From assembly GCF_039536245.1 (NCBI RefSeq), contig NZ_BAAAYN010000027.1, forward strand, positions 39,629-93,098: 53,470 nt of DNA, given 5' to 3'. Source of the stretch: Cryptosporangium minutisporangium. Lineage in GTDB: Bacteria > Actinomycetota > Actinomycetes > Mycobacteriales > Cryptosporangiaceae. Positions 1 through 33,523 of the stretch are shown piece after piece (the stretch's first letter is position 1; each line of letters opens with the position of its first letter). Position numbers and translations under genes: made by a program. The notes beneath the pieces were generated by a model that saw nothing but the letters and a program-made list of their open reading frames with translations, ran no database searches and was not told the DNA's origin.

Positions 1-96
1 ACGGCGGGGCTGGCAGTCGAGCGCGAGGCCGCCTCGTATTGGTCATACTCAAGGGCTCGCGCTCGCCTGTCAGCGTCGTCGTCGGCGGGCCGCCCA
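1..96 (+). repeat. Long stem-loop element, copy A (cut by window edge)
   Basis: This is the right-hand part of a stem-loop that recurs at 493-656, 9069-9223 and 11690-11816. The right arm is 53-90 and pairs with 1-30; about 8 nt of the left arm lie outside the window. The apical region (31-52) has a 4-bp GTAT/ATAC stem followed by TCAA. Pairing includes G.U wobbles in the plus-strand sense, one G x G and the U x C mismatch (17 with 66) seen in all copies. The 3' end of the small gene at 70-366 runs into the right arm. Confidence 0.8.
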
Positions 97-366
97 GCAA
101 GGAGTGTGCCAGTGGCGTCGGTCGTCGGGGCTGGCCTGACCGGCCCAAGAACCAGCCTCCGGCCAGACGACGACGTGCGCGGTTCCGCCGCGGACCTCCT
201 GGTCGCAGCCGGGGCACCGGTACGTCTTGCCGGTGGAGCTACCCGCCAGCCGCCGCACGACCCACCCGTCCTCGACGGTGTCGACGACAGGGACGTACGG
301 GTCGCGCGGGCCGCGATCCGCTTCGGGCCGACCGCGGCGGCGCTGACGATTGTGCCGAGGACTCAC
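70..366 (-). CDS. Small Cys/Trp (putative zinc-binding) protein
   Basis: Encodes 98 residues from a GTG start. The N-terminus is Arg-rich. The second half carries CPGCDQ (about 53-58), a HVVVWP segment, then RRHWHTPCW near the end. This Cys/His/Trp pattern resembles a small protein family I know from actinobacteria; the cysteines suggest a metal site, and the function is unknown. The last residues are a run of Arg encoded by the right arm of stem-loop copy A, so the native C-terminus may have been replaced. It is the next minus-strand gene after the acyl-CoA dehydrogenase-type gene, separated from it by stem-loop copy B. Confidence 0.7.
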   Translation of the reverse strand: MSPRHNRQRRRGRPEADRGPRDPYVPVVDTVEDGWVVRRLAGSSTGKTYRCPGCDQEVRGGTAHVVVWPEAGSWAGQASPDDRRHWHTPCWAARRRRR

Positions 367-492
367 GCTGAGAAAGCGTGCAGGACGCCGCCGAGGTTCC
401 CACCATCGGGGTCACGCACCGCGAGCCGCGACGCCCACCCAGACGCCGCGCAGCGCGGAACTACGGTGCCGCGCGGCGCAGCGTCCACCTGA

Positions 493-656
493 TGCAGTTG
501 CCGTTGAAGCGCCTCCAGGCGCGCGCAGTGGTACCTAATACGGACCTGGAGCCCGTCCAGGACGAGGCTGGCGTCCGCGCGCAAGGCCGTCGCGACCTTC
601 GGGTGGTCTCAAGGCCTTGCGCGCGGCCGTCAGGCTCGTTCTGGGCGGGCCGCCCA
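493..656 (+). repeat. Long stem-loop element, copy B
   Basis: A small hairpin (509-522, 5-bp GCGCC/GGCGC with loop TCCA) precedes a long stem-loop with arms 551-588 and 613-650. The 38-nt arms pair with only G567 x G634 and T573 x C628 unpaired; three other departures from Watson-Crick are G.U in the plus-strand RNA sense. The 24-nt apical loop (589-612) holds a GACC/GGTC stem followed by TCAA. The element ends at the TAG stop codon (657-659) of the minus-strand dehydrogenase gene. Confidence 0.85.
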
Positions 657-2351
657 CTAACGGGCGTAGTCGCGGAAGCCGCGTTTGGTCTTCCGCCCGA
701 GGTAGCCGGCCGCCACCAGGTGCTCGAGCAGAGGCGACGGCGCGAAGCCCGGCTCGTGGAACTCGGCGTGCAGCTCCTTCTGGATCGCCAGCGACACGTC
801 CAGCCCCACGACGTCCAGCAGCGCGAACGGCCCCATCGGGTACCCGAACCCGAGCGTCACCGCGGTGTCGATCTCGTCCGCGTCGGCGTAGTGGGCGTCG
901 AGCATCGCGACCGCGTCGTTGAGGTACGGGAACAGCAACGCGTTGACGATGAACCCGGCCCGGTCGCGGCAGTCCACCGGGTGCTTGCGGAGCGTCCGGG
1001 TCACGGCGTGGGCGGTGGCCACCACGTCCGGGGCGGTGGCCACCGTCGACACGATCTCGACCAGCTTCATGACCGGCGCCGGATTGAAGAAGTGCAGCCC
1101 GACGACGTCCTGCGGCCGCGACGTCGCGGTGGCGCACTCGATCACCGGCAGGCTGGACGTGGTCGTCGCGAGCACCGTTCCCGGCTTGCACACCGCGTCG
1201 AGCGTCGCGAACAGCTCGCGCTTGACCGTCAGGTCCTCCACGATCGCCTCGACCACCAGGTCGACGTCGGCCAGGTCGTCGTGCGTGGCGCTACCGGTCA
1301 CCCGGCCCAGGACCGCGTCCCGCTCGGTCTCGGGGAGCTTGCCCTTCGATACCGCCCGGTCCAGCGACTTGGTCAACGCGGCGAGCACCCGAGCGCTCTT
1401 CTCGTCGCTGCGGGTCACGTAGGTGACGTCGTACCCGGCCTTGGCGAACACCTCGATGATGCCGGTGGCCATCGTCCCGGAGCCGACCACGCCGACCTTC
1501 TGCACGGTCCGGACGATGTCGGCGTCCGCCGTGCTCGAGGCCGTGTCCGCGACCGGCGCGCCGTCCACGTAGGTGTAGAAGCCGCGACCGGATTTCACGC
1601 CGAGTAAGCCGCCGGCGATCATCTGCTTGAGCAGCGGCGCCGGGGCGTGCCGACGGTCGCCGCTCTGCGCGTGGAGTGCGGTGAGCACGTCGAACGTGGT
1701 GTCCAGCCCGATCCGGTCGACGACCGCGAGCGGCCCGGACGGCAGGCCGCAGCCGAACCGCATCGCCGCGTCCACGTCGTCGCGGGTGGCGTAGCCCGAC
1801 TCGACGAACGCCACCGCCTGGTTGAGGTAGGCGAACAGCAGCGCGGACGTGATCAGCCCGGTCCGGTCGCCGACCCGCAGCGGGTTCTTGCCGAGCCGGT
1901 CGGACAGCAGCGCGACCGCGTCGTCGACGACCTCGGGGTCGGTGAACACCGTCCGGACGACCTCGACCAGCGGCGTACCGTCCACCGGCGCGGCGAAGTG
2001 CAGCCCGAGCACCCGGTGCGGATGGGCAGCCGCCACCGCCAGTTCGGTGACCGACAGCGCCGAGGCCGCGGTGGCGAGCACCGCATCCGGACGCACCACC
2101 GCACCGAGGGCGGCGAACACCCGCTGCTTGAGCTCGAGCCGCTCGGGGACCGCTTCGATGACCAGGTCGGCGTCGGCCAGCGCGGACAGTTCCGCGTCGA
2201 CCCGGACGCCGTCGACGCTGATCCGCGCCCGGACGGCCTCGTCCGTGTCCACACCCACCACCTGGAATCCGGCGCCGGCGAACACCTTCGCGAGGCCCGC
2301 TCCTACCGTTCCCAGACCGACGATTCCGATGCGAGCGAAGTCCCGTGGCAC
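657..2351 (-). CDS. 3-hydroxyacyl-CoA dehydrogenase, fused two-copy form
   Basis: 564 residues made of two complete 3-hydroxyacyl-CoA dehydrogenase units (about 1-285 and 286-564), each with an NAD-binding Rossmann fold (GLGTVGAG near 12; GSGTMATG in the second) and a C-terminal helical domain. The family oxidises (S)-3-hydroxyacyl/hydroxybutyryl-CoA with NAD. The second half has the canonical LHFFNP and FIVNALL motifs. The first half reads LHFAAP and LITSALL, so it keeps the His but has lost the conserved Asn of the helical domain. Fused forms of this kind are known in actinomycetes. The divergent upstream region contains two ACTSGCGAGT palindromes. Confidence 0.92.
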   Translation of the reverse strand: MPRDFARIGIVGLGTVGAGLAKVFAGAGFQVVGVDTDEAVRARISVDGVRVDAELSALADADLVIEAVPERLELKQRVFAALGAVVRPDAVLATAASALSVTELAVAAAHPHRVLGLHFAAPVDGTPLVEVVRTVFTDPEVVDDAVALLSDRLGKNPLRVGDRTGLITSALLFAYLNQAVAFVESGYATRDDVDAAMRFGCGLPSGPLAVVDRIGLDTTFDVLTALHAQSGDRRHAPAPLLKQMIAGGLLGVKSGRGFYTYVDGAPVADTASSTADADIVRTVQKVGVVGSGTMATGIIEVFAKAGYDVTYVTRSDEKSARVLAALTKSLDRAVSKGKLPETERDAVLGRVTGSATHDDLADVDLVVEAIVEDLTVKRELFATLDAVCKPGTVLATTTSSLPVIECATATSRPQDVVGLHFFNPAPVMKLVEIVSTVATAPDVVATAHAVTRTLRKHPVDCRDRAGFIVNALLFPYLNDAVAMLDAHYADADEIDTAVTLGFGYPMGPFALLDVVGLDVSLAIQKELHAEFHEPGFAPSPLLEHLVAAGYLGRKTKRGFRDYAR

Positions 2352-2640
2352 GGTCGCCTCCTCTTAGTGCTGCACTGCGGGAGGCCCGAGTGCAGAAGCG
2401 TGCTGATACGCGAGTGACAGCGCGCCCGCGGTCGCCGGTCGGGCGGCACGGAAACGCTGGCTGGCCGTGGAGTGGGCCGAGTGTGGCATACCGATCAGTA
2501 ACTTAGGCCGGAGCATGGTCCGCATCACACCGCTTGCGGGTCTCTGCCCCCATCTGAACCGAGTCACCTTGGTTACTCGCGAGTCAGGTTCGCCCTACTG
2601 GCGAGTTCGTCGCGTCCTAGACTCACGCCAACGCCCAATG
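2352..2640. promoter_or_regulatory. Divergent promoter region with paired palindromes
   Basis: This gap lies between the divergent dehydrogenase and aldehyde dehydrogenase genes. It holds ACTCGCGAGT at 2575-2584 and ACTGGCGAGT at 2597-2606, spaced exactly 22 bp centre to centre (two helical turns), as expected for a dimeric repressor bound on one DNA face. The first sits inside GGTTACTCGCGAGT; the reverse complement of the site upstream of meaA is GGTTACTCGCCAGT. I see no convincing small gene here. Regulator identity (TetR-like) is inferred. Confidence 0.5.
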
Positions 2641-2642
2641 AA

Positions 2643-2708
2643 CTTTTCAACCTCCGGCCCGCTCCGGGCCGAGCGACCGCAGCAGTCGCCGGTCGAAAAG
2701 AATTCACC
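2643..2708 (+). repeat. Leader element with TTTTCAACCTCCGGCC / GGTCGAAAAGA ends, copy 1
   Basis: Lies in the leader of the aldehyde dehydrogenase gene. The left end TTTTCAACCTCCGGCC and right end GGTCGAAAAGA enclose 31 nt. Both ends recur at 24186-24239 around a different core of the same length. The ends can pair (CTTTTC with GAAAAG), and an inner CGACC/GGTCG stem forms in both copies. In this copy ACCTCC is complementary to the GGAGGT of the downstream ribosome-binding site (about 2717-2722), so it could mask that site. Confidence 0.55.
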
Positions 2709-2725
2709 CCTCCCAGGAGGTCCCG

Positions 2726-4249
2726 ATGACCGTGACCGAGCAGTCGTCACGCCCTGGCACGCCGACGTTCGTCGACGGATTTCTGGTGTCGTCGAGCCCG
2801 GCGACCGGCGAGGAGGTCGGCCGGGTCGCGGTCACCGACGCCGACGCCGTCCGGGCTGCGGTCGACGAGGCGCGGGCCGCGTCGACGTGGTGGGCCGGGC
2901 TGGGCTACTCCGGACGACGCGCGCGACTGCTGGCGTGGCGCGCGCTGATCGTCCAGCGCATGGACGAGATCACCGACCTGATGCACCGCGAGAACGGCAA
3001 GCCGACCGACGACGCGATGCTGGAAATGCTGATCACCGTCCACCACCTGGACTGGGCGGCGAAGAAAGCGGCGAAGGTCCTCGGGCCCCGGCGGGTGTCG
3101 TCCGGCATGCTCGCCGCCAACATCGCCGCGACGCTGGAGTACTCCCCGCTCGGTGTGATCGGCGTGATCGGGCCGTGGAACTACCCGGTCTTCACGCCGA
3201 TGGGTTCGATCGCGTACGCGCTCGCCGCGGGCAACTCCGTGGTGTTCAAGCCGAGCGAGTACACCCCGCTGGTCGGCAAGTGGCTGGTCGACACGTTCGC
3301 CGAGGTCGTTCCCGAACACCCGGTGCTCGTCGGGGTCTACGGCGGCGGGGAGACCGGCGCCGCGCTGACCACGGCCGGCGTCGACAAGATCGCGTTCACC
3401 GGGTCGACCGCGACCGGCAAGAAGATCATGGCGGCCGCCGCCCAGACGCTCACGCCGGTACTTATCGAGTGCGGCGGCAAGGACCCGCTGCTGGTCGACG
3501 CCGACGCCGACCTGGACGCGGCGGCCGACGCCGCGGTCTGGGGCGGGATGTCCAACGGTGGGCAGACCTGCATCGGCACCGAGCGGGTCTACGTCCACGA
3601 GGCCGTCTACGAGCCGTTCCTGGCCAAGCTGACCGAGAAGGCTCGCGGTGTGACGCCCGGCGAGGCGCCGGACGCGCTCTACGGACCCGCGACGATGCCA
3701 TCGCAGCTCGACGTGATCCGCCGCCACGTGGACGACGCGCTCGCCCGCGGCGGCAAAGCGGTGGTCGGTGGCGCGGAGTCGGTCAGCGGGCCGTTCGTCG
3801 CGCCGGTCGTCCTCACCGACGTGCCGGAGGACTCGGCCGCCGTCCAGGAGGAGACGTTCGGCCCGACGCTCACCGTGTCCAAGGTGAAAGACATGGACGA
3901 GGCGGTGGAGCGGGCCAACGGCACCTCGTACGGGCTGGGCGCGGCGGTGTTCTCGAAGCGACGCGGCGTCGAGCTGGCGCGGCGGATCCGGTCCGGCATG
4001 ACCGCGGTGAACTCGATCATCTCGTTCGCGAGCGTGGCCGCCCTGCCGTTCGGCGGCGTGGGCGACTCCGGGTTCGGCCGGATCCACGGCGAGGACGGCC
4101 TGCGCGAGTTCACCCGGCCGAAGGCGATCGCCCGCCAGCGGTTCGCGCTGCCGTTGGCGATCTACAGCTTCACCCGCACCGACAAGACGAACGCTCTGCT
4201 CCAGCGCACTATGCGCACGATGTACGGCAAGGGGGCCCCGAAGCGCTAG
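2726..4249 (+). CDS. Aldehyde dehydrogenase (succinate-semialdehyde dehydrogenase-like)
   Basis: 507 residues, the usual length for the NAD(P)-dependent aldehyde dehydrogenase superfamily. The general base is Glu248 in IECGGKDP, the nucleophile is Cys282 in GGQTCIGTERV, and the EETFGP motif is present. Proteins of this actinobacterial type are often annotated as succinic semialdehyde dehydrogenases, but substrate cannot be read from sequence. The ATG at 2726 is fixed by an AGGAGG ribosome-binding site 5 nt upstream. Its promoter region is shared with the divergent 3-hydroxyacyl-CoA dehydrogenase. A strong hairpin begins on the last base of its stop codon. Confidence 0.93.
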   Translation: MTVTEQSSRPGTPTFVDGFLVSSSPATGEEVGRVAVTDADAVRAAVDEARAASTWWAGLGYSGRRARLLAWRALIVQRMDEITDLMHRENGKPTDDAMLEMLITVHHLDWAAKKAAKVLGPRRVSSGMLAANIAATLEYSPLGVIGVIGPWNYPVFTPMGSIAYALAAGNSVVFKPSEYTPLVGKWLVDTFAEVVPEHPVLVGVYGGGETGAALTTAGVDKIAFTGSTATGKKIMAAAAQTLTPVLIECGGKDPLLVDADADLDAAADAAVWGGMSNGGQTCIGTERVYVHEAVYEPFLAKLTEKARGVTPGEAPDALYGPATMPSQLDVIRRHVDDALARGGKAVVGGAESVSGPFVAPVVLTDVPEDSAAVQEETFGPTLTVSKVKDMDEAVERANGTSYGLGAAVFSKRRGVELARRIRSGMTAVNSIISFASVAALPFGGVGDSGFGRIHGEDGLREFTRPKAIARQRFALPLAIYSFTRTDKTNALLQRTMRTMYGKGAPKR

Positions 4250-4298
4250 AACGGTGTGGCGCTGGGCCCGCTATGACGAGCCCAGCGCCACACCGTTC
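4249..4298 (+). terminator. 19-bp perfect hairpin (intrinsic terminator-like)
   Basis: Arms 4249-4267 and 4280-4298 are perfectly complementary (19 bp) around a 12-nt loop. There is no T-tract, which is common for actinobacterial terminators. It starts at the last base of the aldehyde dehydrogenase stop codon and ends only 22 nt before the start of the next co-directional gene. Confidence 0.75.
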
Positions 4299-4320
4299 GG
4301 CCGGGAGATACGGTGCGGGC

Positions 4321-6462
4321 ATGATTTCCCCCGAGTCGGCCCGGCCCGCTCCTCCTGTCGCGAAGCGCGTCCCGTTCGTCCGGAGCCACCACGGTGACGA
4401 GGTCGTGGACGAGTACGCGTGGCTGGCCGACCGGGACGACCCCGACACGATGGCGTACCTCACCGCCGAGAACGCGTACACCGAGCAGGTCACCGCCGAC
4501 CAGGCCGCCCTGCGCGAGACGCTGTTCGACGAGATCAAGCGTCGCACCCAGGAGACCGACCTCTCGGTGCCCAGCCGCAAGGGCGACTGGTGGCACTACA
4601 GCCGCACCGAGGAGGGCAAGCAGTACGGCATCCACTGCCGCCTGCGCGCCGAGCCGGGTCAGCTGACGCCCCCGACCGTGCCCACTGAGCCGGCTCTGCC
4701 GGGGGCAGCGGACGGCACAGTCCTCCCGGGCGAAGAGGTGCTGCTCGACGAGAACGTCGTCGCGGGCGAAGAGCCGTTCCTCGCGCTCGGCGCGTTCGAC
4801 GTCAGCCCGGACGACCGGCTGCTCGCCTACTCCACCGACTTCGCCGGCGACGAGCGGTTCACGCTCCGGATCCGCGACCTGACGACCGGGAAAGACCTCG
4901 CCGACGAGGTCCCGAACACCTCCTACGGCACGGCCTGGTCCGCCGACGGCACCGAGCTGTTCTACCTGACGGTGGATGAGGCGTGGCGTCCGCACCGGGT
5001 CTGGCGGCACACCGTCGGCACGCCGGCCGCCTCGGACACCCTCGTCTTCGAGGAGCCCGACGAGCGGTTCTGGGTGGGCGTCGGCCTGTCCCGCAGCGAG
5101 GCCTACGTCGTGATCCAGGCCAGCAGCAAAACCACCAGCGAGGTGCGCGTCATCGACGCGTCCGCGCCCACCGGTGAACCTCGGCTGATCGCTCCCCGCC
5201 GGGACGGCGTCGAGTACTCGATCGACCACCAGGCAGCCGGGCCGAACCGCCCCGAGCGCTTCCTCGTGCTGCACAACGACGGCGCGGAGAACTTCACGCT
5301 GGCCACCGCCCCGATCGACGCCCCGTCCGAGTGGACGCCGCTGATCCCGCACGACCCCGCGGTGCGCCTGACCGACGTCGACGCGTTCGCCGGCCACGTC
5401 GTCGTCCACCTGCGCAAGGACGGCCTGACCGGCCTGCGGGTGCTCACCGAGGGCGAGCCCGCCCGCGATCTGACGTTCCCGGAGGCCGTCTACACGGTCG
5501 AGCCGGCCGGCAACCCCGACTACTTCACTCATGAGTTCCGCCTGCACTACACGTCGCTGGTGACGCCGGACTCGGTGTTCGACTGCGACCTGGTGACCGG
5601 CGAGCTGACGCTACGCAAGCGGCAGCCGGTGCTCGGTGGCTACGAGCCCGATCAGTACGAGCAGTACCGGGAGTGGGCGGTCGCGGCCGACGGCACTCGG
5701 ATCCCGATCTCGCTGGTGGCCCGGAAGGACACCCCGAGGGACGGGTCGGCGCCGTGCTTGCTCTACGGGTACGGCGCGTACGAGATCAGCATCGACCCCT
5801 GGTTCTCGGTTGCCCGGCTCTCCCTGCTCGACCGCGGTTTCGTCTTCGCGGTGGCGCACGTCCGGGGCGGTGGTGAGCTGGGTCGTCGGTGGTACATCGA
5901 GGGCAGGCTCGGCAACAAGATGAACACGTTCACCGACTTCATCGCGGCTGCTCGGGCCGTGGTGGAGGCCGGCTGGACGTCCACCGACCGGCTCGTCGCC
6001 CGCGGGGGCAGCGCCGGCGGCCTGCTGATGGGAGCGGTCGCGAACCTGGCGCCGGACGCATTCCGCGCGATCGTCGCCGACGTGCCGTTCGTGGACGCAC
6101 TGACGTCGATCCTCGACCCGTCGCTGCCGCTGACCGTCACCGAGTGGGAGGAGTGGGGCAACCCGCTCCACGACCCGGAGGCGTACTCCTACATCCGCTC
6201 GTACGCGCCGTACGACAACGTCGAGGCGCGTCCGTACCCGGCGATCCTGGCGCTGGCCGGGCTGAACGACACCCGCGTGCTGTACCACGAGCCGGCGAAG
6301 TGGGTCGCGAAGCTCCGTGCGATCGGGGCATCCGACGTCCTGCTCCGCACCGAGATGGGCGCTGGGCACTCCGGGCCCAGCGGCCGCTACGACGCGTGGC
6401 GCGAGGCGGCGTTCGCGACCGCCTGGATCGTCGACGTGGTCGGCGCCGATTCCCGCGCCTGA
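4321..6462 (+). CDS. ptrB: Prolyl oligopeptidase family serine peptidase (S9A, oligopeptidase B-like)
   Basis: 713 residues, matching S9A oligopeptidases. An N-terminal seven-bladed propeller region (about 70-430) precedes an alpha/beta-hydrolase domain. The visible triad is Ser564 (GGSAGG), Asp650 (GLNDTRV) and His683 (GAGHSG). The family cleaves short peptides, oligopeptidase B after basic residues. The reading frame is open far upstream, but the homologous N-terminus (MISPESARPAPPVAKR, then the YAWLADRDDP block) fixes the ATG at 4321. No signal peptide is visible, so a cytoplasmic role is likely. The hairpin 22 nt upstream implies independent transcription or attenuation. Confidence 0.93.
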   Translation: MISPESARPAPPVAKRVPFVRSHHGDEVVDEYAWLADRDDPDTMAYLTAENAYTEQVTADQAALRETLFDEIKRRTQETDLSVPSRKGDWWHYSRTEEGKQYGIHCRLRAEPGQLTPPTVPTEPALPGAADGTVLPGEEVLLDENVVAGEEPFLALGAFDVSPDDRLLAYSTDFAGDERFTLRIRDLTTGKDLADEVPNTSYGTAWSADGTELFYLTVDEAWRPHRVWRHTVGTPAASDTLVFEEPDERFWVGVGLSRSEAYVVIQASSKTTSEVRVIDASAPTGEPRLIAPRRDGVEYSIDHQAAGPNRPERFLVLHNDGAENFTLATAPIDAPSEWTPLIPHDPAVRLTDVDAFAGHVVVHLRKDGLTGLRVLTEGEPARDLTFPEAVYTVEPAGNPDYFTHEFRLHYTSLVTPDSVFDCDLVTGELTLRKRQPVLGGYEPDQYEQYREWAVAADGTRIPISLVARKDTPRDGSAPCLLYGYGAYEISIDPWFSVARLSLLDRGFVFAVAHVRGGGELGRRWYIEGRLGNKMNTFTDFIAAARAVVEAGWTSTDRLVARGGSAGGLLMGAVANLAPDAFRAIVADVPFVDALTSILDPSLPLTVTEWEEWGNPLHDPEAYSYIRSYAPYDNVEARPYPAILALAGLNDTRVLYHEPAKWVAKLRAIGASDVLLRTEMGAGHSGPSGRYDAWREAAFATAWIVDVVGADSRA

Positions 6463-6648
6463 CGAGCAGGTTCGGCGCCCGGCACGAGCGTCATCGGCCG
6501 GGCCGCCGGACTCGCACGCCGAGGACCGGTAGCTCTACCCACTCGGCGCCGCGGCATGCTCAAAGGCTCAACTCGCCGACCCACGGGCCGACAGGAGTAC
6601 GAGACGTAGGTCACCCCGACCGCGTCCTGGACTGTCGAGGCGGCGCTC

Positions 6649-8235
6649 GTGGCCCGGTTGACCCAGGGGTTCCAGAACCTCCGGATTGCAGTGAAGCTCG
6701 GCGTGCTCATCGTCATCGCGGTGGTCTGCGCGCTCGTCGTCGGGCTGATCGGGCTCCGTTCCCAGTCCCAGCTCACCGACCAGGCCGAGAAGGTCCGGTT
6801 GCTGGAGGTCGCGAAGGGGGCGCTCAACCACCTCGACACGCGGAACGCCGAACTGAAGGTCGACGGTTACCGGGCGTTGATCGAGACCGACCAGCTGGAC
6901 TCGGTGCGGCAGGACGCCACCGATGACGCGGCCTCCATCGACGAGGCCGTCGCTGCCGTGAAAGCCGCCGGACTCCCAGCCGACCTGAGGTCACAGTTCG
7001 ACGCGATCGAACCCGACATCGAGACGTTCAAGTCCACGGTGACGACGCTGGTCGACACCGCGGGCACCAACTACGCCGCCGCACGCGCGAACGAGGGTCA
7101 GATCGCCGAGAAGAACCACGTCGTCGACGATCAGCTGGAGGCGCTCCACGAGGCCGTGGACTCCGCGATCGCCGCCGGGCGGAGCGAGATGCAGAACACC
7201 AGCGACGGCGCGACCCGTGACGTCCTGATCGCCCAGGTGCTGGCTCTGCTCCTGCTGCTGTTGATCGCGATCCCGATCGTCCGCGGCATCACCCGGCCGG
7301 TCGCTCGGATGCGGACGGTGCTCGACGGCCTGGCCCACGGCGACCTGACGCGCTCGGCCGGCATCACCGGCCGGGACGAGATCGGTCAGATGGCGGCCTC
7401 GCTGGACGCCGCCACCGAGAGCATCCGGGAGGTGCTGGACGCCGTCGACGGAAACGCGACCGCGCTGACCCGCTCGTCGCAGCAGCTCTCCGAGGCCAGT
7501 ACGAGCATCGCGCACGCCGCGGACGACACCAACTCGCAGACCGCGGTCGCGTCCTCGGCAGCCGACGAGGTGGCGCGCAACGTCAACTCGGTGGCCGCCG
7601 GTGCGGAAGAGATGGGCGCCGCGATCGGGGAGATCGCCCGCAACACCACCGAGGCCGTCGGAGTGGTCGCCAGCGCGGTCGACGAGGCCAACCAGGCCAC
7701 CCGCACGGTCGAGCGGCTCGGCACGTCGTCGGCGGAGATCGGCGAAGTGCTCGGCCTGATCACGTCGATCGCCGAGCAGACCAACCTGCTCGCGCTCAAC
7801 GCGACGATCGAGGCCGCCAGGGCCGGCGAGTCGGGCAAGGGCTTCGCCGTCGTCGCCAACGAGGTCAAAGAGCTCGCACAGGAGACCGCGAAGGCCACCG
7901 AGGACATCGGGACCCGGGTCGCGGCGATCCAGCAGGACACCCGGAGCGCGGTCGAGGCGATCAGCCGGGTGGCCGAGGTGATCGAACGGATCAACGAGTA
8001 CCAGGCCACGATCGCCAGCGCCGTCGAGGAGCAGAGCGCGACCACGCAGGAGATGAGCCGGAGTGTCGCCGAGGCCGCGAGCGGTGCAGACGTGATCGCG
8101 ACGAACATCAGCGCGGTCGCGACCGCGACGGCGTCCACGACGCAGGGCGTCGAGCGGGCGAAGGAGGCGGCCGCGGAGCTCGCCGAGATGTCCTCTCAGC
8201 TGCGCGGAATGATCGGCCGCTTCGTCACTCGCTGA
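6649..8235 (+). CDS. Methyl-accepting chemotaxis protein
   Basis: 528 residues from a GTG start. A first membrane helix (about 17-37) precedes a four-helix-bundle sensor domain, a second helix (about 193-213, rich in Leu), a HAMP domain, and a long coiled-coil signalling domain with the conserved hairpin tip [19 protein letters not shown]. It would bind an external ligand and control CheA; no che or flagellar genes lie in this window, so it is an orphan receptor here. The 187 nt upstream hold no other gene. Confidence 0.93.
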
Positions 8236-8321
8236 ACGAACGCGCTGGACCGGTGCTTGTTCACTTTGGCGTGTCACACTTCCGCTCGCTGAACGGATGG
8301 TGAACGCCAGGAGGAGCACCG

Positions 8322-9068
8322 ATGACGCAACCGGTCGGACGGCTGCACGCCGCGATCTCACGCCGGATCCCGCACCTGCCCGACGCGGCCGGGCCGCTCT
8401 CCGGCTCGACATCGGACGGCTCGGCGCCGAACGCGAGTGGGAACCCGCCGCTCTCGGTCCTGTTCGTGGGTGACTCCTCGGTGGCTGGCGTCGGCGCGAG
8501 CCACCACGACGAGGCGCTCGCGGGGCAGTTCACGGCCGCGCTGGCCGAACAGACCGACCGGCCGGTGGCGTGGCGGGTGCTCGCCCGCAGCGGTGACACC
8601 GTCCGTGGCCTCACCGCGCTGGTCACGGCGCACGCCCAGGAGCTCGACGCCGACCTGGTCGTGCTCTCCGCGGGCACGAACGACGCGCTGCGTCTCCGGC
8701 GCCCGTCTGCCTGGCGGGCCGACGTCACGGTGCTGGTGGACGCCGTCCGCGAGCGGCTCGGGCGGCCGGTACCCGTCCTGCTGGTGGGCATCCCGCCCGT
8801 GCACCGGTTCGGGTCGCTGCCGCGGCTGATTCGCTGGTCGATCGGCGGGTACGCGATGCTGCTCGACCGGCAGCTCGTCCGGCTCTGCGCGGCGGCGTCC
8901 GATCTCTGCCACCTGACCGCGAAGCCGCTCCCGACCGACACGTCGGCGTTCTTCTCGATCGACCGATTCCACCCGTCGCCGGTCGGCTACCGAGCCTGGG
9001 CCCGCCTGCTGGCCGCGTCAGCCGCCACTTTCGTCGCCGAATCGGCGCCTGCCCCCGCGTCCGCATAG
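8322..9068 (+). CDS. SGNH/GDSL-type hydrolase
   Basis: 248 residues. The catalytic Ser lies in FVGDSSVAGVG (block I, about 48-58), SAGTND gives block III, and DRFHPSPVGY (near 220) supplies the Asp/His of block V. The family comprises lipases, esterases and acyl-hydrolases; the substrate is unknown. The first 40 residues are not a clear signal peptide. The ATG at 8322 follows a good AGGAGG site. The stop codon abuts stem-loop copy C, and the gene is convergent with nucS. Confidence 0.88.
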   Translation: MTQPVGRLHAAISRRIPHLPDAAGPLSGSTSDGSAPNASGNPPLSVLFVGDSSVAGVGASHHDEALAGQFTAALAEQTDRPVAWRVLARSGDTVRGLTALVTAHAQELDADLVVLSAGTNDALRLRRPSAWRADVTVLVDAVRERLGRPVPVLLVGIPPVHRFGSLPRLIRWSIGGYAMLLDRQLVRLCAAASDLCHLTAKPLPTDTSAFFSIDRFHPSPVGYRAWARLLAASAATFVAESAPAPASA

Positions 9069-9223
9069 TGCAGTTGCCGTTTGAAGCGCCGCCAGGCGCG
9101 ACTGTTCTGAGCTGGAGCCCGCCGAGGACGAGGCTGGCAGTCGAGCGCGAGGCCGCCGCGACCTTTGGGTGGTCTCAAGGCCTCGCGCTCGCCTGTCAGG
9201 CTCGCCCCTCGGCGGGCCGCCCA
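9069..9223 (+). repeat. Long stem-loop element, copy C
   Basis: The 5' small hairpin is 9086-9099 (GCGCC, loop GCCA, GGCGC). The long stem has arms 9117-9154 and 9179-9217, with one bulged base in the right arm. Compared with copy B the outer stem changes from GTCCAG to GCCGAG and the right arm changes to match, a compensatory change. The 24-nt apical loop has the GACC/GGTC stem and TCAA. It fills the whole gap between the SGNH hydrolase stop and the nucS stop. Confidence 0.85.
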
Positions 9224-9224
9224 C

Positions 9225-9884
9225 CTAGAAAAGCTTTCCTTCTGTGTCGTCCACTCCGCGGAGCGTGTCGTAGTTGAGGGTGACGCAGCGGATACCGCGG
9301 TCGGTGGCGAGAACGGAGGCCTGCGGCTTGATCTGCTGCGCGGCGAAGATACCGGTGACCGGTGCGAGCAACGGGTCCCGGTTCAGCAGCTCCAGGTAGC
9401 GGGTGAGCTGCTCCACCCCGTCGATCTCACCCCGCCGCTTGATCTCCACGGCCACCGTCGTCCCGGACGCGTCCCGGCACAGGATGTCGACCGGCCCGAT
9501 CGCGGTCGGGTATTCGCGACGGATGAGCGTGTAGCCCTCACCGAGCGTCGTGATGTGCTCGGCCAGCAGCCGCTGGAGGTCGGCCTCGACCCCGTCCTTC
9601 ACCAGACCTGGGTCCACCCCGAGGTCGTGGCTGGAGTCGTGGAGTACCTCCTCGATCGTGATCCGCAGTTCCTCGCCTGCTTTGTTCACGACGGTCCAGA
9701 CGCCGGGCTGTTCCTCCAGCCGGCAGGGCGGACTCATCCAGTTCAGCGGCTTGTAGGCGCGATCGTCGGCGTGGATCGACACCGACCCGTCGGCCTTGAC
9801 CAGCAGTAGCCGTGTCGCGGGCGGGAGGTGGGCGGTGAGTCGACCGATGTAGTCGACGGAGCAGCGGGCTATGACCAAGCGCAC
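9225..9884 (-). CDS. nucS: Endonuclease NucS (EndoMS), mismatch-specific
   Basis: 219 residues. NucS replaces MutS/MutL in many actinobacteria by cutting both strands at mismatches. The N-terminal DNA-binding/dimerisation half carries [16 protein letters not shown]; the C-terminal RecB-like nuclease has Asp133 (GPVDILCRD), Glu147 and Lys149 (VAVEIKRRG). The C-terminus GKLF resembles the short clamp-binding tail of this family. I chose the GTG at 9884 (start [12 protein letters not shown]), matching the known N-terminus, rather than a longer open frame that would overlap the divergent gene. Confidence 0.95.
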
Positions 9885-9996
9885 GGCGAACCAGGCTAGG
9901 CCATCCGCCACTGGCCTGCCCGCCCGGCCAGCAACACCGAGTCGGGACCCGGACATCGATGCAGTAACCAACGGAACCGGCGCTACCGTCATCCAC

Positions 9997-11421
9997 GTGA
10001 GTGCGACGCCCCATACCGACGCCACCGGCCCGAGATTCGCCAGCCACGTCTTCGGGCGGTGGACGGACCCGCAGGAGGTCCACGCCGCCGGCGTGGCGCT
10101 CCGAGAGAAGACGCCGGTCAGCGCCTGCGCCGAGTACGTCCGGCGGCCGGACCGCCCGGATCCGGTCGCGTTCGTCGAGGCGACCAACGAAGGCCGGGTC
10201 GACGACCTCGTCGCGCTCCGGGTGGGTCGGATGGCCGCGTCGCCGTTCGCGTTCCTCCGGGGCAGCGCCGGCTTGATGGCGGCCGACCTGGTCGGCACCC
10301 CGACCTCCGGCATCACCGCCTGGATCTGCGGTGACGCGCACGCGTCGAACTTCGGGCTCTACGCCTCCCCCGAGCGTCGCCTGGTCATGGACGTCAACGA
10401 CTTCGACGAGACCGTCGTCGGCCCGTGGGAGTGGGACCTCAAGCGGCTCGCCGCGAGCTTGGTCGTCGCCGGTCGCGAGGCCGGGGTGGACGAGGCGAGG
10501 GTCCGCAGCGCCGCGGCGGACGCCGCTCGCATCTACCGGGCCGCGCTCCGCGAGCTGGCCGGGATGCCGATCCTCGACGCCTACTACCTGACCACCGACG
10601 AGAAGACGATCGACCACTTCGACGTCGCCCAGCTCGGCGAAGTGTTCAAGCGGATCGGCAAGAAGGCGCGGAAGAACACCAGCCGGCGGGTCGTCGAGAA
10701 GTTCGCCGAGCGCGCCGAGACCAACCACTGGCGGTTCGTAGACGACCCGCCGACCCTCACCCACGTCGACCGGAACGCCGAGCGGGCGGTGCTCGACGGC
10801 CTGGAGTCCTACGTCGAAGGTTGCCTCGACGACGAGCTGCGGACGCTGCTGTCGCGGTACTCGGTGACCGACATCGCGCACCGGGTGGTGGGCCTGGGCA
10901 GTGTCGGGCGGCGCAGCTACATCGTCCTGCTGCACGGCAACGGCGAGGACGCCCTGGTGCTGCAGGTGAAGGAGGCCGGTCCGTCCGCGCTGGCCCCGTA
11001 CGTGTCCGCGACACCGTACTCCCACAACGGCGAACGCATCGTCCGTGGTCAGCGCTGGATGCAGACGGTCAGCGACATCCTGCTCGGCTGGACGACCGTC
11101 GACGGGCGACCGTTCCTGGTCCGCCAGTTCCGCGACATGAAGGGCAGCATCGACCCCGCGCTGCTCAAGCCGAACCAGCTGGACGACTACGCCCGGGTGG
11201 TCGGCGCGGTGCTGGCCAGGGCGCACGCCCAGTCGGCCGATCCGCGCCTGCTGAGCGGCTACGTGGACGGCCAGGTCCGTACTCCGGGCGGGGACGGGTT
11301 CGACGAGGCGATCGCCACGTTCGCCGTCGCCTACGCCGACCAGACCGAGGCGGACCACGACGCGCTCGTCGGCGCGGTCAAGGCCGGCCGGCTGCCGGCG
11401 ATCTTCGAGGCGGAAGACTAA
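9997..11421 (+). CDS. DUF2252 family protein
   Basis: 474 residues from the GTG at 9997. The DUF2252 fold resembles aminoglycoside-phosphotransferase/kinase-like proteins; the sequence shows [29 protein letters not shown] and [10 protein letters not shown], typical for the family. Biochemical function is unknown. The open frame extends upstream to 9871, but that would overlap nucS, and the upstream residues are low in similarity to the family. It is divergent from nucS with about 112 nt between starts. Confidence 0.9.
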
Positions 11422-11494
11422 GCCTCCCGCGCGGTCCCGACACGACCCGCCGGGCGCGTCGACATGACGCCCCCGGCGTGCCAGGCTCGTGCCC

Positions 11495-11692
11495 ATGGTC
11501 ACCGGAACGCCCGATCCGCTGCAGAGTCGTGTACCGCCGATGCCCGTGCCCGGTCCGCCGGTACCGCCGCCGGCTCCCGCGCCGGTTCCGGTACCGCCGC
11601 CCGGGCCCGGCGGTCCCCAGCCCGGCCCCGGCCCACTGCCGCCGGACCCCGAGCCGCAGCCGAGCCCCGACCCGGTCCCACCGCCGTCCTAA
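11495..11692 (+). CDS. Small proline-rich protein (possible)
   Basis: About 65 residues, more than a third proline (PPPAPAPVPVPPPGPGGP and similar). No domain, signal peptide or membrane segment can be seen. The ATG at 11495 or GTG at 11489 could start it; no strong ribosome-binding site is visible. The TAA stop lies at the first base of stem-loop copy D. It may be a real short protein or simply an open frame in GC-rich sequence. Confidence 0.35.
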   Translation: MVTGTPDPLQSRVPPMPVPGPPVPPPAPAPVPVPPPGPGGPQPGPGPLPPDPEPQPSPDPVPPPS

Positions 11693-11816
11693 GGACTGCC
11701 TTAGACCTGGAGCCCGTCCAGGGCGACGCTGCCGATCGGGCGGGAGGACGCCGCGTATAGGTTCATACTCAAGTCCTTCCGCCCGCTCGGCAGCGTCGTT
11801 CTGGGCGGGCCGGGCA
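11690..11816 (+). repeat. Long stem-loop element, copy D
   Basis: A 5-bp TAAGG/CCTTA hairpin with a 4-nt loop (11690-11703) precedes arms 11712-11749 and 11773-11810. The arms pair over 38 positions with G.U wobbles and only the conserved U x C mismatch (T11736 with C11786). The inner stem sequence differs from copies B and C on both arms. The 23-nt apical loop has the GTAT/ATAC stem of copy A and TCAA. Confidence 0.85.
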
Positions 11817-11853
11817 CGGCGTCGTTCTGGACGGGCCGTGCAACTGTGGAGTT

Positions 11854-12513
11854 GTGTTCGAACTACTGACCGGCACCGGCCTCGCCGCGTCGTCCGGTCT
11901 CAACGCCTACATTCCGCTGCTGACGCTCGGTGTCCTCTCCCGGTACACCGACACGGTCAGCCTTCCCACGGGGTGGCAGTGGCTGGACAGCGGCTGGGCG
12001 CTGCTGATCCTCGCCGCGCTGCTCGCGGTGGAGATGGTGGCGGACAAGGTGCCGGTCGTCGATTCCCTCAACGACGTGCTGCAGACCGTGGTCCGCCCGA
12101 CGTCCGGCGGACTCGCGTTCGGAGCCACCGCCACGTCGGACGCCGTGACCGTCAGCAACCCGGACAGCTTCGTCGGGGGCGGACAGTGGGTCCCGATCGC
12201 GGTCGGCGTGGTCCTCGCGCTCGTCGTCCACGCCGGCAAGGCCACAGCCCGGCCCGCGCTGAACACTGCTAGCGGTGGGTTCGCCGCACCGGTCGTCAGC
12301 GTGGTCGAGGACGTCGCGAGCTTCGGCCTCTCGTTGCTGGCCCTGCTGGCCCCACTCCTGGTCGTCGTCGCGCTGGCCGCGATGGCCGCGGTCTTCTGGC
12401 GAGCGATCCGGAAAGTACGCGCACTCCGACGCCGAAAGGCCGAGCGCCGCGCCCGGAACCGCCCGTTATCTGCCGACCCGAGCGCTGCGATGCACACTCA
12501 GAATTCTCTTTAG
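11854..12513 (+). CDS. DUF4126 family membrane protein
   Basis: 219 residues with several hydrophobic helices (about 5-30, 45-65, 105-125, 155-190) and a basic tail (KVRALRRRKAERRARNR). The N-terminus GLAASSGLNAYIPLL and the segment VEMVADKVPVVDSLNDVLQTVVRPTSG (in part) are characteristic of DUF4126. Function unknown. Starts with GTG just downstream of stem-loop copy D. Confidence 0.85.
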   Translation: MFELLTGTGLAASSGLNAYIPLLTLGVLSRYTDTVSLPTGWQWLDSGWALLILAALLAVEMVADKVPVVDSLNDVLQTVVRPTSGGLAFGATATSDAVTVSNPDSFVGGGQWVPIAVGVVLALVVHAGKATARPALNTASGGFAAPVVSVVEDVASFGLSLLALLAPLLVVVALAAMAAVFWRAIRKVRALRRRKAERRARNRPLSADPSAAMHTQNSL

Positions 12514-33315: not shown

Positions 33316-33523
33316 GGTTCCTCTTCTCTCGTGGTCGCCGGGTCGCAGGCCCCCAGACGGAGAGCAGCGTGAACCGGTACCGATGAGGTCCAGTGTGTCA
33401 GACGGATAGCCGTTTCTCCCAACGCGCGACCCGGGCATCCGATTCCCGCGGCCCGGCGTTCATCCGCTGAGTAACGCCGTCCCGCGTCGCTCCTGACGTG
33501 ACCGCTGGGCAGCGCGAACGGGC

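Follow-up and report, generated by a model that had tools for sequence, protein, structure and literature searches.

The window, by which we mean the whole stretch of 53,470 nucleotides analysed here, lies on contig C27 of Cryptosporangium minutisporangium (genome G000) and contains four hairpins, A to D, in its first part (Table 1). The initial annotation described them as four stem-loops of one orientation whose two arms change together, with two kinds of apical stem each in two copies, and all of this was confirmed, the folds lying beyond chance (RNA-fold z of -7.7 for copy B, -10.2 for copy D and -4.4 for truncated copy A; DNA-fold z of -5.7 for copy C). The copies themselves are real but the spans initially assigned to B, C and D (493-656, 9069-9223 and 11690-11816) are wider than the cores. 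The 5-bp hairpin that had been placed ahead of B, C and D (GCGCC/GGCGC) is present before B and C, not before D.

Table 1. Elements and neighbouring genes in the window; positions count from its first base
Feature	Position	Strand	Remarks
Copy A	1..96	+	5' end cut by window start (scaffold join); apical GTAT/ATAC-TCAA
Mini-hairpin ahead of copy B	509..522	+	GCGCC TCCA GGCGC
Copy B, core hairpin	545..656	+	apical GACC/GGTC-TCAA; model score 128.1 bits
Right-hand convergent gene of copy B	657..2351	-	3-hydroxyacyl-CoA dehydrogenase domains; TAG stop directly at element end
Left-hand gene of copy C	8322..9068	+	GDSL-like hydrolase; TAG 42 nt ahead of core
Mini-hairpin ahead of copy C	9086..9099	+	GCGCC GCCA GGCGC
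Copy C, core hairpin	9111..9223	+	apical GACC/GGTC-TCAA; deletion remnant at G002 site
Right-hand convergent gene of copy C	9225..9911	-	NucS endonuclease domains (Pfam); TAG stop 1 nt from core
Copy D, core hairpin	11706..11816	+	apical GTAT/ATAC-TCAA; element at orthologous G002 site (L204)
Partial second copy of element 3' end	11819..11842	+	directly after copy D; by eye

The window begins at a one-N scaffold join (C27:39628), with the same element on either side of the N. Since both contig ends carry it, the assembly seems to have been broken at a palindrome; C72:10705/10806 (L231) looks like a break of the same kind. Directly before copy D lies a proline-rich ORF of 65 aa (11495-11692) that was missed by the gene caller and has similar sequence in same-genus genome G003. 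An L31-Actinobacteria ribosomal protein leader (RF03158) is found at 33333-33383 on the minus strand.

Far from forming a family of four, as first thought, hairpins A to D are four of about 115 dispersed copies in C. minutisporangium. With copy B as the query, blastn gave 62 matches in this genome, a figure that includes self-complementary ones; a covariance model built from 29 copies gave 142, of which many are one hairpin read again on the opposite strand. The 115 places comprise the model matches left after removal of reverse-strand matches and the weakest fragments, together with further places that arm patterns and re-scans brought up; self-matches on the minus strand and weak fragments such as C43:57718 and C30:50839 are not counted. 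As 150 candidates were scored, the figure may be low. The covariance-model search, which had been proposed for finding further copies, also detected the family in three other genomes of the genus: 57 places in G002, pruned in the same manner, 18 strong copies of full length in G003, not counting ten weaker matches of 37-55 bits, and at least 15 copies in G001. Copy number within the genus runs from 18 to about 115, and three species together hold some 190 copies (115, 57 and 18). Among 41 genomes searched as relatives, a number that counts C. minutisporangium itself, matches were found in five, namely these four and one genome of the same taxonomic family with two weak matches. A search of 394 genomes of the class, in which 9 candidates per genome were scored under strict filters that weak families could escape, returned C. 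minutisporangium itself and one 41.6-bit palindrome of unrelated look, and one exact degenerate pattern had no matches in a wider contig collection, outside which near relatives possibly lie. The hairpin family is a genus-restricted interspersed palindromic element, and no earlier account of it was found in the titles and abstract openings of the open-licence literature.

The units are near-palindromic with constant ends, mostly 113-121 nt long and in some cases about 170 nt; among 149 copies the model match measures 110-129 nt in 138 and 160-179 nt in 9. The core is a hairpin with 38 model pairs. Its left end mostly starts (C/G)(C/G)TGGAGCCC, preceded by T-rich sequence and GTTCTGA, GCTCGAA or TACGGA, and its right end reads CGGGCCG(C/T)(C/G)CAC. 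In a check for a GT[AG]G foot, the reverse complement of the right end was seen to open GTGGGC or GTGCAC and left ends mostly (C/G)(C/G)TGGAGCC. By pattern count among the 149 copies the apical modules are GACC/GGTC-TCAA (64), GTAT/ATAC-TCAA (47) and GTGAC/GTCATAA (21), followed by GTGACC/GGTCACAACC (2), long branched forms (9) and others (6). The U x C mismatch that had been noted in all four window copies is family-wide: 89 of 97 own copies and 45 of 53 from other species have it in one or the other of two adjacent columns. Within the C. minutisporangium genome there are 22 occurrences of the mini-hairpin AAGCGCCGCCAGGCGC, nearly always just ahead of a full copy or a deletion remnant.

Sixteen long forms of about 170 nt were collected, of which seven of one type were checked for four-way covariation and seven others were folded. 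In the former type columns 38, 75, 84 and 135 covary four ways in 7/7 sequences, which are related and come from one genome; two ways of pairing are thus open to the arms, giving either a single long hairpin that has an inner arm or a pair of half-hairpins. A second type shows almost no covariation for its extra arm (term -0.05). The first 120 of the 174 nt of long form L158 have no stable fold alone (z +1.0), as is expected of a cut hairpin.

Covariation, which the initial annotation had asked to be checked, is extensive. Across the 29 copies 97.8% of the cells pair and two-sided changes occur in 19 of 38 pairs; none of 500 shuffles, made without control for relatedness, reaches any of five measures, and pairing falls to 29-45% when partners are slid by 1-3 columns, a control for relatedness that favours a structure derived from the same sequences. 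Most imperfect positions other than the U x C mismatch had been reported to be G.U on the plus strand, and the whole family agrees: when the 29 copies are aligned by sequence the G.U:A.C ratio is 63:6 (39:6 if the G.U-rich column pair 28/90 is disregarded), in 97 model-aligned own copies it is 218:28 (107:28 without two G.U-rich columns) and in 53 copies from other species 94:6, and it becomes 60:27 and 24:6 when each copy is counted against its nearest neighbour. Such an asymmetry is not expected from a double-stranded palindrome by itself but is from a single strand that folds. The excess of G.U over A.C therefore argues that a single strand, RNA or single-stranded DNA, probably folds, while strand-biased mutation could contribute part of it. 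A higher model score on the plus strand was dropped as fold evidence, since the model also scores sequence.

In 19 comparisons of orthologous sites, not all independent, two-sided changes kept pairing 76 times and broke it 10 times, and one-sided changes kept it 34 times and broke it 31 times; much of this change is whole-module replacement. Five close comparisons within a subtype, which were chosen with the result already known and of which three are not independent, gave 10 one-sided changes that break pairing and 8 that keep it, besides 3 two-sided changes that keep it and 1 that breaks it; a further same-subtype pair, L132/L192, in which there is a deletion (2 broken, 0 kept), was left out. 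With 10 against 8, constraint on the individual copy is weakly supported.

The context of the element was determined with a codon-usage gene caller written for this analysis, which missed at least one small ORF, and context as well as pair counts use 97 of the about 115 own copies, the rest being copies added later, fragments, and copies A and D of the window. Of 149 copies, 127 are faced by a convergent gene on the right and 84 by convergent genes on both sides; the left gene is directed away from the element in 45, and 2 are divergently placed. Measured from an exact GGGCCG anchor, the right gene stops at -40..+12 nt in 104 of these 127 copies; among the 104 the stop codon is a TAG at +4 in 36, falls inside the conserved arm in 21 and keeps to one reading phase in 66, so that the element abuts or supplies the stop codon where stops lie at +4 or inside the arm. 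Relatives without the full element have the TAG of the copy C site too, so that this stop codon does not derive from the element. The nine bases 14 to 6 nt ahead of the core are T-rich (0.32 vs 0.14), and some copies have a separate terminator-like hairpin upstream. Such hairpins are weakly enriched (mean z -0.67 vs -0.06 to -0.33), too weakly to retain insertion after terminators as an explanation. The element as an intrinsic terminator was rejected as well, since in position tallies over 149 copies the large hairpin is not followed by a T run, whichever way it is read. A terminator pattern scan of window positions 1-12000 returned 4 sites vs 3.0 expected, none of which overlaps the four cores.

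Both the fold and the placement bear on the idea, put forward in the initial annotation, that this is a selected RNA structure. Plus-strand read-through from the left gene, which as a rule is the head-on member of a convergent pair, would then fold into a back-up terminator, an insulator or a 3'-end stabiliser, which would account for the G.U excess on that strand, the 84 sites with both neighbours convergent, the T-rich bases ahead of the core and the maintenance of elements at orthologous sites with 76 two-sided compensations over the 19 comparisons. The same idea has to accommodate 45 copies whose left gene runs away, where no plus-strand mRNA is expected, a G.U-rich strand that is antisense to the very gene the element abuts, the balance of one-sided changes in close pairs, a copy number that varies severalfold within one genus and the outcome of the terminator scan. 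What stands of the initial claim are the copies, the covariation and the plus-strand wobble; a single-stranded DNA hairpin fits the same evidence as an RNA structure, and the overall pattern is that of REP/REPIN-type repeats. We thus consider selection as an RNA element rather improbable, if the most substantial of the alternatives for the family as a whole. Irrespective of this, copies that are transcribed would form very stable hairpins at 3' ends.

For comparison between species 30 of the 57 G002 copies and four of the at least 15 G001 copies were fetched. An element is found at the orthologous place in another species for 15 of the 30 compared G002 copies and for at least 8 of the 18 G003 copies; the flanks of shared sites are 72-93% identical, L072 and L084 being matched by neighbourhood alone with longer unaligned stretches. 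With half of the compared G002 sites occupied elsewhere, many copies must be old. Different apical modules at one site (L126/L079/L203 and L129/L184) suggest exchange between copies, and at two sites the element is inverted between species (L131/L198 and L145/L074), which fits re-insertion or inversion. Deletion remnants occur at L207, L220, L222, L226 and, more doubtfully, L218, as well as at the site of copy C in G002, where only the mini-hairpin and the first core bases remain; copy C is absent from G003 and G001. No target duplication was seen at the one resolved site, that of copy C, where relatives have a remnant or are rearranged, and no clean empty site was seen among the sites compared. 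The segment from copy C to copy D (window 9111-11816) is inverted in G003, with breakpoints at both element sites. At L188 (G002 C8:181380-181665) two opposite copies lie about 58 nt apart, where G003 (L089) and G000 (L237) have one full copy.

The common orientation of the four window copies extends to all five copies on C27 but not to the family, and reflects a bias that follows replication. G003 is a single contig, a complete chromosome, which starts with what we take, from their proteins, to be dnaA-dnaN-recF-gyrB-gyrA; in most of the 20 stretches sampled along it, the skew is weak but has the sign expected. Its strong copies lie on the minus strand in 8 of 9 cases in the first half and on the plus strand in 9 of 9 in the second (17/18 agree), which puts the plus strand of the element on the leading-strand template in 17 of 18. 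When the ten weaker fragments are included, six of which agree, the count is 23 of 28 (p 0.004 against 0.566); co-orientation of genes with replication in G003 amounts to some 55-57% of coding bases. Draft contigs were anchored to 1.2 Mb of sampled G003 sequence and to its element loci, each contig being assumed colinear, and the anchored copies agree with the same polarity in 55 of 74 cases in G000 (p 0.0012) and 27 of 37 in G002 (p 0.031), again against 0.566; 41 own and 20 G002 copies are on contigs without anchor. As sites are common to several species these counts are partly dependent. A strict orientation rule was discarded, since it is contradicted by 19 of the 74 and 10 of the 37 anchored copies, and pairs of copies within a draft contig agree only modestly often (111 of 188 and 78 of 125). 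The five copies on C27 have the orientation expected from this polarity, which explains that of the window's four.

Several explanations of the polarity may be considered. Were the element a selected RNA, the bias would follow because its left side faces the head-on gene of a convergent pair. A replication or segregation protein might instead read the element as a polar chromosome site, with replichore orientation the selected trait; the bias in three genomes is what such a site would produce, but an agreement of 73-74% in two of the three, copy numbers and positions that vary, and the occurrence of deletions and inverted copies make it very unlikely. A more serious, if tentative, proposal for the polarity alone does without oriented insertion and holds that copies whose better-folding strand is on the lagging-strand template are deleted more often, so that the opposite orientation comes to prevail. 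The near-exclusive location of the plus strand on the leading-strand template in G003 and the existence of hairpin deletion remnants agree with it, yet the remnants that can be oriented (L207, L218, L220, L222 and the copy C site in G002) are three of the minority and two of the majority orientation, too few to be decisive.

Searches for a mobiliser of the Y1 or RVT_1 kind were negative. The Y1 transposase domain of IS200/RAYT type (PF01797) was found in 0/5 genomes, vs 5 of 14 control genomes, a search that a very diverged RAYT could escape, and the RVT_1 reverse transcriptase domain (PF00078) in 0/4 genomes, vs 3 of 14 controls. Nor was any ORF-bearing copy found in the own genome by arm patterns with up to 3 mismatches (among 100 of 122 left-arm places) and re-scans, where arms lie within about 180 nt of each other or are fragments. 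As the initial annotation had surmised, no named RNA family matches: Rfam gave no match over the elements of the window at gathering threshold, and at seven loci searched at E up to 5 the sub-threshold matches fall outside the elements, none being an intron or retron (the best is mir-497 upstream of L131, with 39.3 against 62 bits). These results bear on spread through RNA or in an integron-like manner, with the element a group II intron relic, a retron-like RNA or an attC-like site. Group IIC introns follow terminator-like hairpins, as some copies do here, and a structured single strand would be in keeping, but the lack of RVT_1 and of any intron or retron match, even below threshold, renders this barely credible.

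The many-copy, gene-end, ORF-less and genus-restricted pattern recalls REP/REPIN-type repeats. MITE-like repeats such as ERIC or NEMIS are short palindromic non-coding intergenic repeats too; in the present family no cognate IS ends or target duplication were identified. With REPINs and BIMEs, as described in PMC3116915 and PMC6006769, it shares the intergenic location, many dispersed copies forming an imperfect long hairpin, compensatory changes and lack of an ORF. A choice between hairpin and clover has been proposed for REPINs (PMC3116915), and the possible two-half-hairpin fold is a parallel to it. The present family differs from them in that no Y1/RAYT gene was found in the five genomes and no GTAG foot is established, and also in its polarity along the replichores, a U x C mismatch that is conserved, apical modules that can be exchanged and a branched form of about 170 nt. 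Since RAYT/Y1 was not found, we regard the element as working like a REPIN without filing it as one. CGTC-tagged REPs of five other phyla are, according to PMC3733652, palindromes of 20-40 bp near gene 3' ends that apparently have no dedicated transposase, properties shared here except for the unit length; an unpaired CGTC foot was not seen by eye, CGTC occurring within the stem alone. BRE repeats of Bordetella (PMC3110155) are, as here, GC-rich and intergenic, with a context that is only partly conserved between species; they measure 75-91 bp and are reported not to be co-oriented with the replication fork, unlike the polarity-biased elements studied here.

Taken together, we hold it somewhat likelier than otherwise (probability about 0.55) that the family is a REP/REPIN-like palindromic element that spread via single-stranded DNA by an enzyme acting in trans and is now mostly inherited vertically. 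Its plus strand would fold as single-stranded DNA (or RNA) and be recognised in this form by the putative enzyme, which would place new copies where replication exposes single-stranded DNA. Insertions may have survived mainly at gene ends, where the element would abut or supply a stop codon, and present copies would be mostly vertically inherited, lost through hairpin deletion and, as it seems, able to exchange modules. It is conceivable, though on balance we doubt it, that the family is something new, either a replication-polar (formerly) mobile class of palindromes, with a plus-strand fold that switches between a long hairpin and two half-hairpins and a mover that is neither Y1 nor reverse transcriptase, or a genus-specific structured RNA at convergent gene ends. 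REP-type repeats are abundant, their spread and role are unsettled and families without transposase are a known puzzle. One genus with some 190 copies, old shared sites, strand asymmetry and polarity should make replication placement, deletion filtering and a role at transcript ends separable by experiment in a strain whose chromosome is complete. Finally, the right half of the element has given rise to tandem 72-bp units at G000 C11:257081-257468 (L232), with six right ends in a row.
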